From a virus: 39,196 bases of DNA. The DNA lies in the IMG/VR virus record IMGVR_UViG_3300022745_000084, positions 1 through 39,196 of that record; one strand, 5' to 3'. The notes under the pieces were generated by a model that was not told the origin of the DNA, made no database searches, and saw only the letters and a list, made by a program, of their open reading frames with translations. Position numbers and translations under genes: made by a program. Below are positions 7,382 through 22,443 of the stretch, one piece after another (position 1 is the first letter of the stretch; the number at the start of each line of letters is the position of its first letter).

Positions 7382-7596
7382 ACTCAACGATTGAACACAA
7401 TGGCGAGAGCGTGACGCTGTGCAACGGCTATCCGCACAAGCAATCAGGCTTCATTGGCGTGGGCGAGACCATCACAGTCTGCGCTTGGTGCGATAAGGAT
7501 AAGCAATGCACGCGGCAACTCATCGCCAATGGATTTGTCACATCACACGGCATTTGCACCGAACACGCGAAAGCATTTTTCCAACATGAATCATAG
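7378..7596 (+). CDS. Small metal-binding protein (CxxC ... SHGIC)
   Basis: Product of 72 aa starting at GTG 7378 (GTGA overlap). The longer in-frame extension to 7246 reads through the previous gene and looks non-coding. 'VCAWCDKDKQCTRQL' and 'VTSHGICTEHAKAFF' form a CAWC...SHGIC.xH pattern typical of small zinc proteins in environmental phages and bacteria. Function unknown. Confidence 0.65.
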   Translation: MNSTIEHNGESVTLCNGYPHKQSGFIGVGETITVCAWCDKDKQCTRQLIANGFVTSHGICTEHAKAFFQHES

Positions 7597-8098
7597 CCAC
7601 ATCATCACCACGCTCGAAAAGATTTGCCGAGGGCTGGCAAAGAAGCCGTCTGCCGTCAAAATCGTTTCGTTCGTCGTCGGCCATAAAATCATCGCGTCCG
7701 TCAAGTGCGACAAGTCGGACGCCGGAAAGATTATCGGCGCAGCGGGCGCGAACATCCGTGCCATTGGCAACATCGGGCAAGCGATGGCTGATAACATCCA
7801 AATGCGGATGATTATCACCGTTGACGCAGGCGCGGAATCTAAAGACAGCTTCATCAAATACGCCGCAAATCCTAAGTACGATTGTACGCCAGAGGCGGAG
7901 TTGTTGGAAGAAATTGGCGCAACCATCTTCAACGATGGCGTAAAAGTGTCCGTGATTGCCGAGGATGATGTTGTCGTCCTAGTGCTGAGTTATGACGGCC
8001 AGAATGACGAACAGCTTGGCGCAGACCTTAACACCATCTTCAACGCCATAGGCAAGAACAAGGGCGCGAATGTGATTGCGGAATTGGACTCTCAATGA
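7586..8098 (+). CDS. KH-domain protein, putative RNA-binding
   Basis: Product of 170 aa from ATG 7586. The region 'HKIIASVKCDKSDAGKIIGA' then 'AGANIRAIGNI' (about 35-67) fits a KH core with a GxxG-type loop (IIGAAGANI), as in KhpA/NusA-type KH domains that bind single-stranded RNA or DNA. The rest is an alpha/beta region without a recognised family ('SVIAEDDVVVLVLSYDGQND'). Overlaps the previous gene by 11 bp and the next by 4. A role in phage mRNA or host RNA control is an inference. Confidence 0.6.
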   Translation: MNHSHIITTLEKICRGLAKKPSAVKIVSFVVGHKIIASVKCDKSDAGKIIGAAGANIRAIGNIGQAMADNIQMRMIITVDAGAESKDSFIKYAANPKYDCTPEAELLEEIGATIFNDGVKVSVIAEDDVVVLVLSYDGQNDEQLGADLNTIFNAIGKNKGANVIAELDSQ

Positions 8099-8439
8099 AA
8101 GGCATCCTTTTTAACGGCGTTTTAGCGGGCGCATCTACGCGGCAAGATGGCAGCTTAGGACTGCGCGTGGACACGCCGGAGTTAACGCCGGAGGAAAAGC
8201 TCGCCGTGTTCGCGTTGCAAAATGTGCCGTGCGAAATTACGTTCAAGCCATCGGACGAAGCTTCGCCGCCAAAGGAAGTAAAGGGAGAGTTGAGCCGCAA
8301 GACCGTGAGCCAACGATTTCGCGCCGTGGTGTTCGTGTGGTGGTCGCAGCTAGGCAGTCCCGGCGACTTCGCGCAGTTCTACGAGAGCGAGGGAAATAAA
8401 GTGGTGGAATCGTACAAAACGAAACTGAGGCCGTTATGA
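8095..8439 (+). CDS. Conserved phage hypothetical protein
   Basis: Product of 114 aa. An N-terminal beta region (ILFNGVLAGASTRQDGSLGLRVDTPELTPEEK), then a C-terminal helical motif 'KTVSQRFRAVVFVWWSQLG..GDFAQFYESE.NKVVESYKTKL', which I know from many phage early regions. No biochemical role is known. ATGA junctions on both sides. Confidence 0.7.
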   Translation: MKGILFNGVLAGASTRQDGSLGLRVDTPELTPEEKLAVFALQNVPCEITFKPSDEASPPKEVKGELSRKTVSQRFRAVVFVWWSQLGSPGDFAQFYESEGNKVVESYKTKLRPL

Positions 8440-8525
8440 CAACGATTATGATACCGATTGCTTTCTTCGCCGGGATTGGTTTAGGCGTGGCGATTTGCTT
8501 TTACGTCATCAAAGGAAAGCTATGA
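8436..8525 (+). CDS. 29-residue single-span membrane peptide
   Basis: ATG at 8436 overlaps the previous stop, and TGA at 8523-8525 overlaps the next ATG. The product is MTTIMIPIAFFAGIGLGVAI then CFYVIKGKL, one hydrophobic span with a Gly-rich face and a positive cytoplasmic end. Tight ATGA coupling on both sides and the ribosome site of the next gene inside its end argue that it is translated. Function unknown. Confidence 0.6.
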   Translation: MTTIMIPIAFFAGIGLGVAICFYVIKGKL

Positions 8526-9028
8526 GCTTTAAAGAATGGAAGATGGAAGATGTGCAGAAGCACAATGCAAAGATTTCGCGGGCGCGTAGCTCAACGGTAG
8601 AGACGTTGGCTTCCCAACGAGATGCGGGTTCAACTCCCGCCGCGCCCCGCAAACGCAAGCCCGCGTACACGGAGGAACAGGTGCGGGCGTGGTGTGTAAA
8701 ACATAGTTTGCCTGAGCCGGTGTTTGAGTTGCAATTCCACCATACTAGGAAGTGGAGGTTTGACATTGCGTGGACTGAAATTAGAGTCGCAAAACATTCA
8801 GACGGAACTGAGGACACGGATTTTCGATTCACATTTAGCGGCGTTGCTATTGAGATTCAGGGGGGGATTTGGGTTGGCGGAGGTCATAGTCGCGGAGCGC
8901 AAATGAAAAAGGATTGGGAGAAGTGGATGGAAGCGCAGCGGCTAGGATGGAAGATGGCGTGGTGCGAACCGAAAGATTTGCTAAGGGACGCGACGGCTAG
9001 AATAGTGCTTGATTTATTGAGCGCATGA
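8522..9028 (+). CDS. PD-(D/E)XK-like nuclease with an embedded tRNA-like segment
   Basis: Product of 168 aa; ATG 8522 has AAAGGAAAGC just upstream. The C-terminal domain (about 50-168) reads 'RKWRFDIAW', 'VAIEIQGGIWVGGGHSRG', 'EKWMEAQRLGWKMAWC'. This is the order of small phage nucleases of the Vsr/DUF559/Holliday-resolvase-like superfamily, with Asp in FDIAW and Glu in AIEIQ as catalytic candidates. The usual second acidic/Lys position is Gln here. Residues about 20-45 (RARSSTVETLASQRDAGSTP) are encoded by the tRNA-Gly-like sequence at 8580-8648 and are not expected in homologues. Confidence 0.7.
   Translation: MSFKEWKMEDVQKHNAKISRARSSTVETLASQRDAGSTPAAPRKRKPAYTEEQVRAWCVKHSLPEPVFELQFHHTRKWRFDIAWTEIRVAKHSDGTEDTDFRFTFSGVAIEIQGGIWVGGGHSRGAQMKKDWEKWMEAQRLGWKMAWCEPKDLLRDATARIVLDLLSA
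8580..8648 (+). tRNA. tRNA-Gly-like sequence inside a coding region, anticodon arm abnormal
   Basis: Acceptor arms GGGCGCG (8580-8586) and CGCGCCC (8641-8647) pair fully. D arm GCTC-AACGGTA-GAGA and T arm GCGGG-TTCAACT-CCCGC are canonical apart from one D-stem mismatch. The anticodon stem CGTTG/CAACG (8604-8608/8615-8619) encloses only six bases (GCTTCC), and the whole is 69 nt, about two short of a normal tRNA-Gly. The TTCC/TTCCC region resembles a UCC or CCC glycine anticodon. No CCA is encoded. It may be a decayed tRNA, a tRNA-derived attachment site, or an unusual functional tRNA. Confidence 0.6.
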
Positions 9029-14042: not shown

Positions 14043-14977
14043 GTGCCGCCACCCTGACATCCGAATTGACGAGCAGCCCAGCGCGGCACTCATTGGCTGC
14101 GACGCTTGGTTCTGCCCCGTCAATCAATCCACAAATCGTCTCATTCAGTGGTGGGCAAACGTCCGGCTATATGCTGCGGCGTCTGCTAGATGAAGTCGGC
14201 GCGGAAAATCTGACTGCAATCTTCTGTAACACCGGCAAGGAATATGACGAAACGCTAGACTTCGTGAACGACGTTCAAACCGAGTGGAATGTGCCGGTGA
14301 CGTGGCTGGAATACTGCCGCGTGAATGACGAACACTCATGGCGCGTGGTGAGCTACGAAACCGCCGCTCGCCGGAATGATGCCCGCACGCCGTTCGATGA
14401 AATGCTCGAATGGGGCGGCACGCTGCCGAACGTGCGCGGGCGCGGATGCAGTGGACAACTCAAAGTGCGGACGATGAAACGCTACCTGCTCGCGCACGGG
14501 CTGGAAAAGTGGGATAGCTACATCGGAATCCGCGCTGATGAATCTCACCGCACGCTGGAAATCCTCGCGCAATGTCCCAAATACATCACGCCACACTTCC
14601 CGCTGAATGACGCAGGCGTGATAAAGAAAGACGTGGACGACTTCTGGGATGCTCAACCGTTCAAGCTCAACATCCCGAATCACAAAGGCAACTGCGACCT
14701 GTGCTTCCTGAAAGCGAAATGGAAACGGCTCTCAATCATGCGCGAAGAACCCGCCGCCGCAAACTGGTGGATCGGATGGGAACGGAAGATGAAAGCGCGG
14801 ATGGAAGCTGCCGGAAAACCAACTGGCGGCGCAATGTGGGTGGATGGCGTCAGCTACGAAGGACTGCTCGCGGAATCCCAACACCCCGAATTTGATTTCA
14901 ACGAACAGGACGTGCCCTGCTCCTGTGCGGTCGGTGGCTATCGTGACGCCGACGATGAGGGGCAGAACAATCATTAG
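14039..14977 (+). CDS. PAPS-reductase-family (adenine nucleotide alpha-hydrolase) protein
   Basis: Product of 312 aa. SFSGGQTSGYMLRRLLDE (about 35-52) is the PP-loop of the PAPS reductase/DndC superfamily, which binds ATP or PAPS. 'FCNTGKEYDETLDFV' and 'GCSGQLKVRTMKRYL' (about 136-150) match the later family motifs. 'CDLCFLK' and the terminal CSC resemble the extra Cys of phage members and may bind zinc or iron-sulfur. Phages often carry such genes, without a proven role; sulfur transfer to DNA or tRNA, or altered host sulfate reduction, are possibilities. The first about 30 residues are low in complexity. It is the last complete gene of block A. Confidence 0.8.
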   Translation: MSAATLTSELTSSPARHSLAATLGSAPSINPQIVSFSGGQTSGYMLRRLLDEVGAENLTAIFCNTGKEYDETLDFVNDVQTEWNVPVTWLEYCRVNDEHSWRVVSYETAARRNDARTPFDEMLEWGGTLPNVRGRGCSGQLKVRTMKRYLLAHGLEKWDSYIGIRADESHRTLEILAQCPKYITPHFPLNDAGVIKKDVDDFWDAQPFKLNIPNHKGNCDLCFLKAKWKRLSIMREEPAAANWWIGWERKMKARMEAAGKPTGGAMWVDGVSYEGLLAESQHPEFDFNEQDVPCSCAVGGYRDADDEGQNNH

Positions 14978-15108
14978 ACACAACGGACAATCCTAAAACT
15001 TTGAAAATGCTTCAAAAGCTTCTAGGTCATAAGAGTGTTGAGACGACCATGATATACACTCATTGCGTTGATTTAAACGCCGTAAGAAGCCCACTAGACC
15101 AACTCTAG
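14977..15108 (+). pseudogene. 3' remnant of an integron-type tyrosine recombinase
   Basis: The frame ending at TAG 15106-15108 encodes LKMLQKLLGHKSVETTMIYT then HCVDLNAVRSPLDQL. The LLGH histidine and the active-site Tyr of 'IYTH' are the C-terminal catalytic motif of tyrosine recombinases. The ending 'VRSPLD.L' is what I expect from integron integrases (IntI) rather than typical phage integrases. Only about 43 codons remain; the Arg-Lys-His-x-x-Arg part is absent from the window. The stop shares bases with the stop of the leftward gene at 15105, so the remnant abuts the late operon exactly. Confidence 0.75.
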
Positions 15109-16603: not shown

Positions 16604-19054
16604 TCAGTATGTGCCGATGTAGATTCCATTGATGAACCGCAGGTTGCTGCCAGAAGCCACATCCTCGGTTGCGCCCTGCTGCGCGGTGTCATTCGGGTCA
16701 ATCACCACTGAGCAATTTAAGTCGAGGTATAAAACTGTCGCGCCATTCATGCCCCCCTTGATGACCGGGTAGCCGCCAGCTATCTCAAGCGAGACTGAGC
16801 TTTCTCCGCTGACGAGGGCGGTGCCATCAGATAGAACTCCGACGTCCATTGCTCCAACGCCATTGTCAACATGAAGGGTCGTGACGCCGCCGCTGGAATT
16901 GTAGAAGTTCGCCATGATATATCGGACGTTGTACGCAAGGCGGTCATACACCACGATGCTGTTCGTGCCGGTGAACTGCTCCGTACTTGTAGTGACCGGA
17001 GTCCCAACCTGCACCCGGCCATCATCCACCCAGAGATACGCGGGGGTGTTTGAATTCATTCCGCTGGTTTTGGACGGCGGGCTGATTTTGATGTAGGGAA
17101 CGCTGAATCCGCCGATGTACGTCTTCGAGATTCCGGTGTTGTATTTCTTCGCCACCGAGTTCGTGTAGATGACGTAGTGGCCGTTCTCATCGGGATGGAT
17201 GTTGCCGCCGTCGAAGGTTATCGGCGTTCCCCGGTGGTCAATGTAGGTCGTGTAGTAGCTGGTGTTGGTCGGCCAGTAGTTGTTGAAGTTGGTCAGGTTG
17301 GCGGCGTTGGCGGATAAGCCGCTGTTCGGAATCGAGTGCAACCAGACCTGCATCTGCGGCGAGTTGGTCTTGAAGTAATAAAGCAGGTTGGTCATCCATT
17401 GGATTGCGAACGAGCCGTCGTTGTAACCCATCATCACCTGAATCACGCCGTTGGTGGAGGGGAAGTATTTGAAGCTGCCGAACATCTGCTCCCGGTACTT
17501 GAAATAATTGGAGACGGTCTGCGTCCCTTGGGCGAAATTGTACTCACTGATGTACGGCCCGAAGTTCGTGTCCTCAATCATCCGAATCGGCCACGACTTG
17601 AAGCCGGTGAAGCCTTCGCCGCCCGAGCCGCTGTTGTTGCAAGAGATGGAATCGCCAATGATAAAATGCTGCTGCTGCATCTGCGCGGGATTGGTGATGG
17701 ACGAGCCGCCTCCCGTGCTGGCAATCGTCCAGTTCGTCCTGCTCCCGGTGACGTTGGTGGTCACGGTGATGTTCGCTCCGGCGGTGATGGATGGGAGGTT
17801 GGTGCGATAGGCGGATTCAGTTCTAAGAGCTAGGTTTGTTATGCCGATTTCAGAAGACGTAAACGTAGAATTTCCGGGCGAGCTTCGGTAGGAATATACA
17901 AGCGTGTCGTACGGCCAAGTATCCCCAGAGTTATGCGTGAAAGATGTTGCCCTAACATCATCGTAAACATTCATCGGATTGTTAAACGTGCTTGAACCAT
18001 TCACCGTCAAATTACTATTCAACGTCACCGCGCCCGCGTAGTTATTCGTCAGCGTCTTGGCGAGTATGCCGTTGCTGGTCGTGGTCAGATTTCCGGCGAC
18101 AACTGTTTTTAAAGCGAGATTTGTGACGGCGGTTTCTGAATTTCCCAAAAGCCCGGAATTGCCGAAAGCGGCAACTCCGCTGTACGGAAAACCAGAGTTT
18201 GCAACAGTAAGGTTGGCGACGGTCAATGAATCAATGTTTGTGTGGTTGTTAACGTAGTTTATTACGCCGTTGCTCAAAGCGACATTGCCGGTGAGCGTGG
18301 CGACATTGGATATGGCGATAGATGTGTCGTTGATTGTCCCGTCCGTGTCGAATTGGGCAACTACAGCGTAGATTGAATCGTATCCCGGAACGCGGAAACT
18401 GCCGCCGGAAATTGTCCCGCCCGCGTCCACGTTATTCGTCACATGGATGTTGTTGAAATTAGTCGTGAACGCGCCGCCGCTGGAAAGTGCGTTCGTGGAA
18501 AGCTGCGACCAATTGGTTAGGTTTTGACTGCCCCACTGAACCCGCGCCGCAAGCGTGTTCGTCGCATCCCGCGCCACCTTAATCGCGATGTTCGTCGCCG
18601 TGCTTGCGCTGATGCCTCCGCCGTTCACCATGTCAATCGTCGCAAACTTCGCATCTGCCGACGCCTGCGAATAGGCGAGCGAAGTCGGCCCTAGATTCGT
18701 TGAAGCTGAAATGTATAAGTGCGCGTCAAACGTCGTATCCATCAAGTTCGTTGGAAAGCTGTTCGTGAACACGGTATCAGACAACGGGCCGGACAGCGTG
18801 ACGCGATAGGCATAGCCGACGATTATGTTGGTGACTAGCAGCGTGCCGTTGGTGGTCGTCTGGCGCACGATGGCGTCTGATGCTATCACTGAGCCGTTAA
18901 CAACGCCGTAGGGATACAGCGGTTTTATTGTTACGCGGCGCACGGCAACGGCATTGGTGGTGAAGTCAGCGAACGTCCACAGCGCATTGCCAACGCCCGC
19001 AGAGGCGGTCATGGTGGCGAGCAGAAAAAAGAAAGGGAATAGCCTTTGCATCAT
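16604..19054 (-). CDS. Tail fibre-like protein with SGNH hydrolase domain and signal peptide
   Basis: Product of 816 aa. The N-terminus MMQRLFPFFFLLATMTASAG looks like a Sec signal. Residues about 25-450 are Thr/Asn/Ser-rich fibre-like sequence (TTNGTLLVTNIIVGYAYRV). An SGNH/GDSL esterase domain follows: block I 'IIGDSISCNN' (about 466), block III 'MMGYND' (about 541) and the catalytic pair in 'DGGNIHPDENGH' (about 613-624). The C-terminal part is beta-rich. Phage SGNH domains typically remove acetyl groups from surface polysaccharide. Most likely the receptor-binding or depolymerising fibre. Thr/Asn-rich texture resembles host Verrucomicrobiota secreted proteins. Confidence 0.75.
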   Translation of the reverse strand: MMQRLFPFFFLLATMTASAGVGNALWTFADFTTNAVAVRRVTIKPLYPYGVVNGSVIASDAIVRQTTTNGTLLVTNIIVGYAYRVTLSGPLSDTVFTNSFPTNLMDTTFDAHLYISASTNLGPTSLAYSQASADAKFATIDMVNGGGISASTATNIAIKVARDATNTLAARVQWGSQNLTNWSQLSTNALSSGGAFTTNFNNIHVTNNVDAGGTISGGSFRVPGYDSIYAVVAQFDTDGTINDTSIAISNVATLTGNVALSNGVINYVNNHTNIDSLTVANLTVANSGFPYSGVAAFGNSGLLGNSETAVTNLALKTVVAGNLTTTSNGILAKTLTNNYAGAVTLNSNLTVNGSSTFNNPMNVYDDVRATSFTHNSGDTWPYDTLVYSYRSSPGNSTFTSSEIGITNLALRTESAYRTNLPSITAGANITVTTNVTGSRTNWTIASTGGGSSITNPAQMQQQHFIIGDSISCNNSGSGGEGFTGFKSWPIRMIEDTNFGPYISEYNFAQGTQTVSNYFKYREQMFGSFKYFPSTNGVIQVMMGYNDGSFAIQWMTNLLYYFKTNSPQMQVWLHSIPNSGLSANAANLTNFNNYWPTNTSYYTTYIDHRGTPITFDGGNIHPDENGHYVIYTNSVAKKYNTGISKTYIGGFSVPYIKISPPSKTSGMNSNTPAYLWVDDGRVQVGTPVTTSTEQFTGTNSIVVYDRLAYNVRYIMANFYNSSGGVTTLHVDNGVGAMDVGVLSDGTALVSGESSVSLEIAGGYPVIKGGMNGATVLYLDLNCSVVIDPNDTAQQGATEDVASGSNLRFINGIYIGTY

Positions 19055-19314: not shown

Positions 19315-22300
19315 TCAGGAACATTTGCAATCTATCCCTTGCCGGATGTACGCATCTGACATATCCAGCCCGTCACATACACATTGCCGCTCCGCCAAGA
19401 AAAAGCCGTGTTCGCTAGGGAATGGTTTCACAGTGATAACGCCGTTGTACACGCCATCTCCGGCGGGTGATAGCGTGACGGCATCCACGCCGTTAATCTC
19501 TTTGTCCGGTAGATATACCGGCAACGTCACGCCAGTTGGAAACGCCGGGAAGTCGTCAACATCGCATCGTGCCTCAACGGGCGGATAATGCGGGTAGTAA
19601 TAAATCAGCCCGCCGGTCATTGAAGTAGGGTCAAGCGCGGACAGCGTACACGCGCCATAGTCCATCACCCATTTGGACGATTCCGCACACTCCACCCCTC
19701 CCGGATGATGCGGATTTTGCCATAGCGGGTCAGGCATGGTGAACGTCGGCATACCCTGCCACAGGAACGGAAGCAGGTGGTCGGCAGCATCGCCGACATA
19801 GCTTGCGCCGCTGTAATGAAGCACGGAAGCCGATGGCAGCGTTTCAATATGCGAGTTGTCAATCGCGCCATGTCCAACAGGCAACCAACCCACTATGCCC
19901 GGAGTACATGGCTCAAACGGCAGGCAATGATTGGCGCACGTTTGCGATGCCACCGGCTGACCGTTGATTATGGTGACAGTTGCGCCGTCCGCGTGGTCAT
20001 GCGTCCATGTATGCAAAGCATAGTCGCCTTTGCGCTGGTCGTCGTTCCACTCATAAGAAGCCGCGCCGTTAGACGCCACATATCCGCCACTGACGTACGC
20101 CGAAGAAAGTGTTCCAGCAACCTTGAAGTGCGTGCTGTCCACTATCGCGACTACGGCCAAGTTCGTTCCAAGCCCGGCAAGCGTTCCGGTAAAATCAACG
20201 TGGTCAGTGAGCGCGGCGTGGACGACCAATTTGGAAGCTGCTGCCGATTCAATGATGACATTGCCGCCATCTTGAACAGCGGAAACGATGTCATAACGTC
20301 CGCACAGCGCGGGCTTGTCTGCGAACCTTAACTTGGCGATGAAATAATCTGTGGTATCCGGCGTGAAACGGTACGGCAACGCGGCAATCAACGCGCCATC
20401 CCGAACAAAGTTATGGTCATCCGTGCGGGTGATTTTGTAAATGCCGGGGTTGGTGTCGCTCTTGATATAAACCAAGTCGCCGGTCACGCCGCTAAATGCC
20501 GCGTCTGTCGTCAATGCCGAGCCGTCGTCACTCAACACGCACGTTGATGTTAACTCATCCGGCAACCAGCGGTCATCGCCACAAGGCCGGGCGAAGTTGT
20601 ACGATGGTCGGCGAATCTGCGTGAAGATAGCCCATTGAACTATCACGCCGTCCGGCGTTGCCATCACCCATGCGCCGGGGCGGAACTGGCAGGCGTTGTA
20701 ATTGTTCGTCCATTGCGTTGCTTGTTTTGGAACAGCCGCATCTGTTTCGTCGCCATCTTCAATCGCTCCCGTGCTTGCGCCGAGGCCGCGCAGATACGGC
20801 ACTAGGAATCCGAACACATCCACCTGATTCGAGGCGGTCGTGCCGTTGCAGCCGAACCATGTTTCGTGTTCGTAGTCGAACACCCGCGCTCCGGGTTTGC
20901 CGGAGGGTTGCCCCATGATCGCGCCAGTGAAGCGGTCGGTGTGCAGCGTGCCGGTCGTCCACACGGCTTTGCCCACATCGCTCAACGCCAGCCATTCATC
21001 CGTCGTGCCGGGAAAGCCGCCGGAAGGCGTGGCGGGGAATTCCCACCGCACGCTATTCGGGTCAACGCCGTCCAAGGGCAGCCAATAGCCGGAAACCCGC
21101 CAGTCGGTCGTGAACGGCTCGTAGTCCGGCCAGAACGACCCCCATTCCGTGAAGGGATTGACGGGGGAAGAATAGTCGGCGATGCCTTCGCCGGGCGTGG
21201 ATTGCGCAGGCCACTCGTTCAGGTGTAGGCAGGGGGCGATTGCCCCGCGCTGATAGCCGCCCGTTGAGTCGAACGTCCGCACGGTATCGCGGGAGACGAT
21301 GGGCGCGACGCTCAGGTATTCATCATGCCGCCACGGATATTGCACGTTGTCGTTCAAATCCCAGCCGGAAGCCGTGGCAAGGTTGTCCATGCCATCAATC
21401 AGGTCTTGGATGGTGACGGAATCATCCAGTTCAACCGAGTAGTGGATCGTGCCGGTCTGGAGATAGTGCAGGGCGTGGGCGCTGCCCTCCGGGTCTGTAC
21501 CCCAGTAGGCGCTATCGGGAATCCGCCACGTTTCTTGCGACCATTCTACTTGCAGTTCAAACGTGGTTTCGGAAAGTGTGGATGCCAGCACGTCGTAGGT
21601 TCGGATTATCTTCTGGTCGGTGGTGGCGGTTACAGAGGTGTGCGGGGTCGCGCTGCCGTTTTCGTAGAAGTAGGTGGTGTTGTTGGCCTCGATCTCCGTC
21701 ACCACTTCCGCCATCGTGGTTTTTTCAATCGGATAAATGTTGCCGTTCGGGTCGCTGGGGTCTTCGATGTTGTTGAAATTGATCCCCGGAATCTTCACGC
21801 GGATGGGGCAGCCGATACTGAACACCGTTCCGTCCGGGTCGTAATAGCGGAACGATGCCTGCGTCACCGCTGACGAAGGCTCGATGTCGCTGGTGTAGGA
21901 GTTGACGTAATTGGCAAGCGTCCGCAAGCCCGAGTTGGCGTCAACGGTGGTGGTGATTTCCTTGTGCTGTTCCGAGGTGGCCACATGGACGAGGCTGCCG
22001 CCGACCTCCAGACTTTGCTGGTCGGTCACGGTGATGTTGAACGCCACGGTGGCGGTGCGGTATTTGATGGAGTAATCGTTCGTGGTGCAGAAGTTCAATG
22101 GGCGATGGCCATGCCAGACGGCGACGGCTTGCAGGTTTTTGTGGCCGATGTTCTCGCAGACCTGATAATCCCCCTTCGCCTCGTTCTCGGTGTACACCTG
22201 CGTCACCCGCAGATGACGCGGGAACTCGCCGCAGAGGGTATCGCAACCGGACGCGGCATCGTGGCAGTTGTCGCCGGTAAGTTCACGCTCGGCGAGCCGG

Positions 22301-22443
22301 TTGGCAATCGTCGGCTCGGTGATGTTCGTGTATTCGGTGACGGTCTTTTCCGATGACTTGCCGTGCTGAAATTTCTTGCCCGCCCATGCGTGCGTCCAGC
22401 CCGCGCAGGGAGTCCGGTACGGTGGCCGATTATTGCCGCTCAT
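19315..22443 (-). CDS. Large tail-tip/virion structural protein
   Basis: Product of 1042 aa, among the longest here. No domain recognised with certainty. It is rich in Thr, Asp, Tyr and Trp, with beta-type segments (YRTATVAFNITVTDQQSLEVGG; ETTFELQVEWSQETWRIP), and has Cys clusters at both ends (NCHDAASGCDTLCG about 60; RQCVCDGLDM and IDCKCS at the C-terminus). Its place between tail-tip genes and the fibre suggests a baseplate hub or adhesion protein. In uncultured phages of similar layout proteins of this size occupy this slot. Confidence is high for coding, low for role. Confidence 0.65.
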   Translation of the reverse strand: MSGNNRPPYRTPCAGWTHAWAGKKFQHGKSSEKTVTEYTNITEPTIANRLAERELTGDNCHDAASGCDTLCGEFPRHLRVTQVYTENEAKGDYQVCENIGHKNLQAVAVWHGHRPLNFCTTNDYSIKYRTATVAFNITVTDQQSLEVGGSLVHVATSEQHKEITTTVDANSGLRTLANYVNSYTSDIEPSSAVTQASFRYYDPDGTVFSIGCPIRVKIPGINFNNIEDPSDPNGNIYPIEKTTMAEVVTEIEANNTTYFYENGSATPHTSVTATTDQKIIRTYDVLASTLSETTFELQVEWSQETWRIPDSAYWGTDPEGSAHALHYLQTGTIHYSVELDDSVTIQDLIDGMDNLATASGWDLNDNVQYPWRHDEYLSVAPIVSRDTVRTFDSTGGYQRGAIAPCLHLNEWPAQSTPGEGIADYSSPVNPFTEWGSFWPDYEPFTTDWRVSGYWLPLDGVDPNSVRWEFPATPSGGFPGTTDEWLALSDVGKAVWTTGTLHTDRFTGAIMGQPSGKPGARVFDYEHETWFGCNGTTASNQVDVFGFLVPYLRGLGASTGAIEDGDETDAAVPKQATQWTNNYNACQFRPGAWVMATPDGVIVQWAIFTQIRRPSYNFARPCGDDRWLPDELTSTCVLSDDGSALTTDAAFSGVTGDLVYIKSDTNPGIYKITRTDDHNFVRDGALIAALPYRFTPDTTDYFIAKLRFADKPALCGRYDIVSAVQDGGNVIIESAAASKLVVHAALTDHVDFTGTLAGLGTNLAVVAIVDSTHFKVAGTLSSAYVSGGYVASNGAASYEWNDDQRKGDYALHTWTHDHADGATVTIINGQPVASQTCANHCLPFEPCTPGIVGWLPVGHGAIDNSHIETLPSASVLHYSGASYVGDAADHLLPFLWQGMPTFTMPDPLWQNPHHPGGVECAESSKWVMDYGACTLSALDPTSMTGGLIYYYPHYPPVEARCDVDDFPAFPTGVTLPVYLPDKEINGVDAVTLSPAGDGVYNGVITVKPFPSEHGFFLAERQCVCDGLDMSDAYIRQGIDCKCS

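Follow-up and report, generated by a model that had tools for sequence, protein, structure and literature searches.

A tRNA-derived sequence read in frame in the linker of a phage nuclease gene

A nuclease gene of a phage in the IMG/VR record IMGVR_UViG_3300022745_000084 is read in frame through a tRNA-derived sequence, which lies between a short N-terminal module and the nuclease domain. Neither the tRNA-encoded residues nor a tRNA at this position was found in any of the homologues examined. Because the linker is absent or unrelated in these homologues and none of them has a tRNA there, the gene probably captured the tRNA. That is, we think it likely that a whole tRNA entered the linker of the nuclease, lost 3 nt, and is now read as about 23 tolerated residues. 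The evidence for this arrangement comes from one contig. In this report, "the window" means the whole stretch of DNA that was analyzed (39,196 nt), and the features discussed are listed in Table 1.

Table 1. Positions of the features in the window.
Feature	Position	Strand	Remarks
Shine-Dalgarno-like sequence AAAGGAAA and start ATG 8522	8510..8524	+	AAGGA, 5-nt match to the anti-SD
Nuclease gene, 168 aa, PHROG 503, VSR/DUF559-type	8522..9028 (including stop)	+	profile and structure matches
N-terminal module MSFKEWKMEDVQKHNAKIS, residues 1-19	8522..8578	+	common to phage DUF1064 nucleases and the PHROG 503 relative L035
tRNA-derived segment	8580..8648	+	69 nt, in frame; ARAGORN, Rfam, folding
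Anticodon arm GTTGG-CTTC-CCAAC	8605..8618	+	3 nt short in the loop compared with a canonical 72-nt tRNA
Nuclease domain, residues ~46-168	8657..9025	+	conserved E69, D81, E111, H122, D131
Possible internal start, GGAGG then in-frame GTG 8681	8671..8683	+	follows closely on the tRNA; possibly fortuitous

Detection and structure of the tRNA-derived segment

An earlier note on this DNA had described a cloverleaf at 8580-8648 with perfect acceptor and T arms. When the window was scanned with ARAGORN, a tRNA-like gene was found at this place on the plus strand, and it was the sole tRNA-like call in the window. The program reported it as "tRNA-???" with an incomplete anticodon. The Rfam tRNA model RF00005 matched identical coordinates over its full length (model positions 1-71) with a score of 49.6 bits (E 7.9e-8 for the window), the gathering score of this model being 29 bits. 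Because the match is full length and its score is well over the threshold, a chance origin of the segment is unreasonable. These results confirm that the segment is a genuine tRNA-derived sequence.

We find it scarcely credible that the arrangement is an assembly chimera or a product of chance. It was seen on a single contig, and no donor tRNA was identified; however, chance is excluded by the Rfam score, and a chimera would rarely put one whole tRNA precisely into a linker between domains, and in the open frame at that.

The folding z value of the segment was -2.7. All seven pairs of the acceptor stem and all five pairs of the T stem are of the Watson-Crick type, as the cloverleaf had been drawn, and three of the four pairs of the D stem are formed (G10-A25 is a mismatch). 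The conserved tRNA bases U8, A14, G18G19, A21, U33, T54T55C56, A58, and C61 are present. Neither CCA nor RCC follows position 73, where the sequence reads C-GCA. The G+C content of the segment is 67%, compared with 54% in the window, 40% in the codons preceding the segment, and 51% in the remainder of the gene.

Anticodon arm and tRNA identity

The anticodon loop had been described as having 6 nt. Such a loop can be drawn with the stem CGTTG/CAACG, but a loop of 4 nt closed by the 5-bp stem GTTGG/CCAAC can be drawn equally well. The predicted fold of the arm is CGTTGG-CTTC-CCAACG. The drawing with GTTGG/CCAAC restores position 26 and a variable loop of 5 nt, and thus gives a canonical 72-nt tRNA minus 3 nt. 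We inferred the ancestral arm by enumerating the small insertions that restore a canonical anticodon arm. A 72-nt tRNA (stem GTTGG/CCAAC, U33, and a 5-nt variable loop) from which 3 nt of the loop were lost explains the segment with all standard spacings. We also considered a Gly(CCC) ancestor of 74 nt that had lost 5 nt, and set it aside, since the 72-nt ancestor keeps all of these spacings.

Whichever way the arm is drawn, the loop has 4 or 6 nt in place of the 7 nt of a decoding-competent loop, and the anticodon is incomplete. Because the loop is 3 nt short of a canonical one and no usable anticodon is left, the segment cannot decode.

The segment had been called tRNA-Gly. Bacterial tRNA-Gly typically has C-G at the pair 2-71. 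In this segment, the pair is G-C, and neither a CCC, UCC, or GCC anticodon nor the C2-G71 identity pair was found. The short D loop favors Gly, whereas G2-C71 speaks against a normal bacterial tRNA-Gly. In addition, the loop remnant CTTC is compatible with Gly(UCC), Glu(UUC), or Arg(UCU). Since CTTC is ambiguous and G2-C71 is atypical for tRNA-Gly, the assignment to Gly is plausible but unsecured.

Reading frame through the segment

As had been pointed out earlier, the segment shares strand and frame with the gene, is situated near its N-terminus, and adds about 23 residues without breaking the gene. The open reading frame 8522-9028 indeed reads through it, with the greater part of codons 20-42, and the first base of codon 43, lying in the tRNA. 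The residues encoded are RARSSTVETLASQRDAGSTPAAP. Both other sense frames through the tRNA contain TAG, and the frame used is the sole sense frame free of stops. The length of the segment is a multiple of three.

The nuclease domain

The open reading frame matched PHROG 503 over the nuclease domain in a profile search (E 6.2e-22). The residues E69, D81, H122, and D131 were conserved in the first alignment of homologues. The top structure match was 3r3p, the catalytic domain of I-Bth0305I, and it was weak (profile E 0.001/0.0024; Foldseek E 0.09, prob 0.95). I-Bth0305I is an EDxHD homing endonuclease whose structure is given by 3r3p (PMC3943268). Although no solved structure comes closer to the nuclease domain, whether by sequence profile or by fold, the match is weak, and no evidence of an intron or of homing was seen at this gene. 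Some homologues of the nuclease also matched DUF559, weakly. The description of the protein as PD-(D/E)XK-like is therefore fair in the broad VSR/EDxHD sense, as indicated by 3r3p and DUF559, but family-level support for it is weak.

In the AlphaFold2 model (mean pLDDT 84.9; the input alignment left out three rows from the phages collection), residues 3-31 are predicted as helix and residues 32-50 as coil, and both lie outside the nuclease fold and precede it. Two genes upstream of the nuclease (7454-8098, plus strand), a KH RNA-binding domain was predicted (PF13083, E 5.6e-8).

The N-terminal module and the start of translation

Residues 6-18 of the protein (WKMEDVQKHNAKI) resemble the N-terminus of L035, a PHROG 503 protein (MPWLTPEQYAQHQARV). 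Using a degenerate DNA pattern for W..E[DE]h..HNA, we obtained exactly three matches in IMG/VR, all of which were N-termini of DUF1064 nucleases. The three proteins matched Pfam DUF1064 with E values of 6e-16 to 4e-25, and an example of their N-termini is MSNGFEDWTIEDVLKHNARI. Judging from these sequences, residues 1-19 very probably belong to the real protein, with 8522 as the start of the gene. The matches of the N-terminal motif and the Shine-Dalgarno-like sequence ahead of the start together support the view that ribosomes begin at 8522 and read across the tRNA to the nuclease domain.

The phage DUF1064 nucleases (PF06356) share with our protein the arrangement of a module W..EDV..HNAKI followed by a variable linker, but they have another nuclease domain, and their linker contains no tRNA. 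Since the linker after the module varies in the DUF1064 proteins as well, the tRNA is placed where variation is known.

Comparison with homologues

The homologues from viral and phage records aligned mainly from residue ~43, directly after the tRNA, and their linker was absent or unrelated. An ARAGORN scan of 62 nuclease loci found no tRNA within or just upstream of the nuclease. Homologous nucleases that carry the same residues in DNA of no tRNA likeness would speak against a capture; we looked for them among the homologues found, and there were none. A tblastn search of the phages with residues 1-46 gave no match. We also sought a syntenic sister with an empty site, and the neighboring regions 8095-8436 and 7454-8095 had no relatives in IMG/VR. 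In the closest phages by terminase (76-100%), the nuclease was absent or, in records that are fragments, its region was uncovered.

The comparison also bears on another explanation, a gene fusion, which we regard as unlikely. According to it, a phage tRNA gene stood after the broken start of a DUF1064-type nuclease gene and ahead of a PHROG 503 gene that was then independent, and all of these were fused into one frame; the ancestral start of the latter gene would then have been downstream, perhaps at GTG 8681. Such an origin would agree with the observation that the best match of the N-terminal module is to a different family of nucleases, DUF1064, and with the GGAGG that stands ahead of the in-frame GTG just past the tRNA. 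Most PHROG 503 homologues, moreover, begin near residue 48. However, the PHROG 503 relative L035 has a similar N-terminal module without a tRNA, and the relatives L010 and L011 also have N-terminal extensions, which are comparable. We prefer an insertion into an existing two-part gene to a fusion seam.

Search for a donor tRNA and for traces of insertion

No exact donor was found when both halves of the tRNA together were searched for in the GTDB genomes (0 matches), and neither the 5' half nor the 3' half had a match in IMG/VR (0 each). A relaxed pattern retrieved 28 tRNAs for Lys, Ile, or Val from Patescibacteria, Chloroflexi, and Acidobacteria, none of which was a tRNA-Gly, and these share the 5' part. 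Kinship with these 28 tRNAs was dismissed, because the pattern itself forced 23 shared nucleotides. Neither a target-site duplication nor a flanking repeat was seen around the segment.

Origin and possible roles of the segment

Three readings of the segment had been proposed in the earlier note: a decayed tRNA captured by insertion, an attachment or recombination site derived from a host tRNA, and a dual-use RNA that is cut out of the mRNA. The first is the best supported of the three, in that the homologues lack the segment and that a conserved N-terminal module and the nuclease domain flank it. We infer that an insertion took place, and its steps can be considered as follows. A complete tRNA gene sequence of about 72 nt, or 24 codons, would have entered the linker between the N-terminal module and the nuclease domain, and the sense frame of the tRNA that is free of stops, of which there is just one, would have coincided with that of the gene. 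A loss of 3 nt from the anticodon loop, which keeps the frame, may have occurred after or at the insertion and would have given the present 69 nt. The ~23 residues encoded by the tRNA would then extend the helix and loop of a tolerant and flexible linker, and most likely this linker is neutral and inconsequential.

The acceptor and T arms are the minimal recognition elements of RNase P. In this segment both arms are perfect, and a possible internal Shine-Dalgarno sequence and start (GGAGG, GTG 8681) follow. It is thus conceivable, though very unlikely, that RNase P and 3' nucleases excise the tRNA-like element from the nuclease mRNA, yielding a small RNA or a switch to the internal GTG. Against this, the 3' end has no CCA-like sequence, the element is conserved in no homologue, and the Shine-Dalgarno-like GAGGAA consists of ordinary Glu-Glu codons. 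It is highly improbable, too, that the element has been kept for a role at the RNA level, in which a cut by RNase P at its 5' edge would give a long form and a short form from GTG 8681 that has no N-terminal module.

Phage attP sites, many of them matching host tRNA genes, are known inside repressor genes in systems of integration-dependent immunity (PMC5559632). Our gene resembles these cases in that a tRNA-derived sequence lies within a phage coding gene, and a related phage, G003, has a tRNA 3' part, tRNA-Glu-like in appearance, immediately upstream of the integrase gene that it carries. Nevertheless, we see very little prospect that the segment is an attP site matching a host tRNA gene inside a coding gene, and the attachment-site reading is hard to sustain. 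The segment is a whole tRNA with the 5' acceptor strand included, not a 3' part alone, the gene is not a repressor, no integrase adjoins it, and no match to a host tRNA gene was found in the donor searches above. The sole trace of a recombinase is the C-terminal fragment of an integrase 6.4 kb away, and there is no serine recombinase. This tyrosine recombinase fragment (14972-15108, plus strand; LLGHKSVETTMIYTH...VRSPLDQL) lies directly after a PAPS-reductase-like open reading frame; no complete integrase was found in the window, and the fragment is likely a remnant of a lost integrase. In G003, the tyrosine integrase gene is at L127:1501-2808, and the tRNA 3' part upstream of it is probably an attachment site, which gives a probable picture of such tRNA-derived sites in this group of phages.

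Relation to known systems and significance

Structured elements inserted in frame are already known: Rickettsia palindromic elements (RPEs) occupy such positions in protein genes (PMC10969869). The capture that we propose resembles them in that a short structured DNA stands in frame in an otherwise normal protein gene and is tolerated. It differs in that RPEs are mobile, occur in repeated copies, and measure ~150 bp, whereas here there is a single recognizable copy of a tRNA and no repeats. In a literature search of partial coverage, we found no phage gene described as being read in frame through a whole tRNA.

We think of this gene as a well-defined case in which an RNA gene has turned protein-coding in a phage, recently enough that the cloverleaf is still legible. 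It shows that a tRNA, read in the only one of its sense frames that is free of stops, can be tolerated as a linker. The gene also offers a concrete case for asking whether RNase P is drawn to an mRNA that contains a tRNA fold, and it warns that tRNA calls within genes need not be functional tRNAs.

Two further observations were made in the course of this analysis. On the minus strand of the window, two large open reading frames of 816 and 1042 aa (16604-19054 and 19315-22443) had no Pfam matches. In the relative phage G005, a small open reading frame that looks like a membrane protein (L126:1417-1737) reads in frame through an intact tRNA-Met (1501-1576), and this is possibly a second case of a phage open reading frame running through a tRNA.
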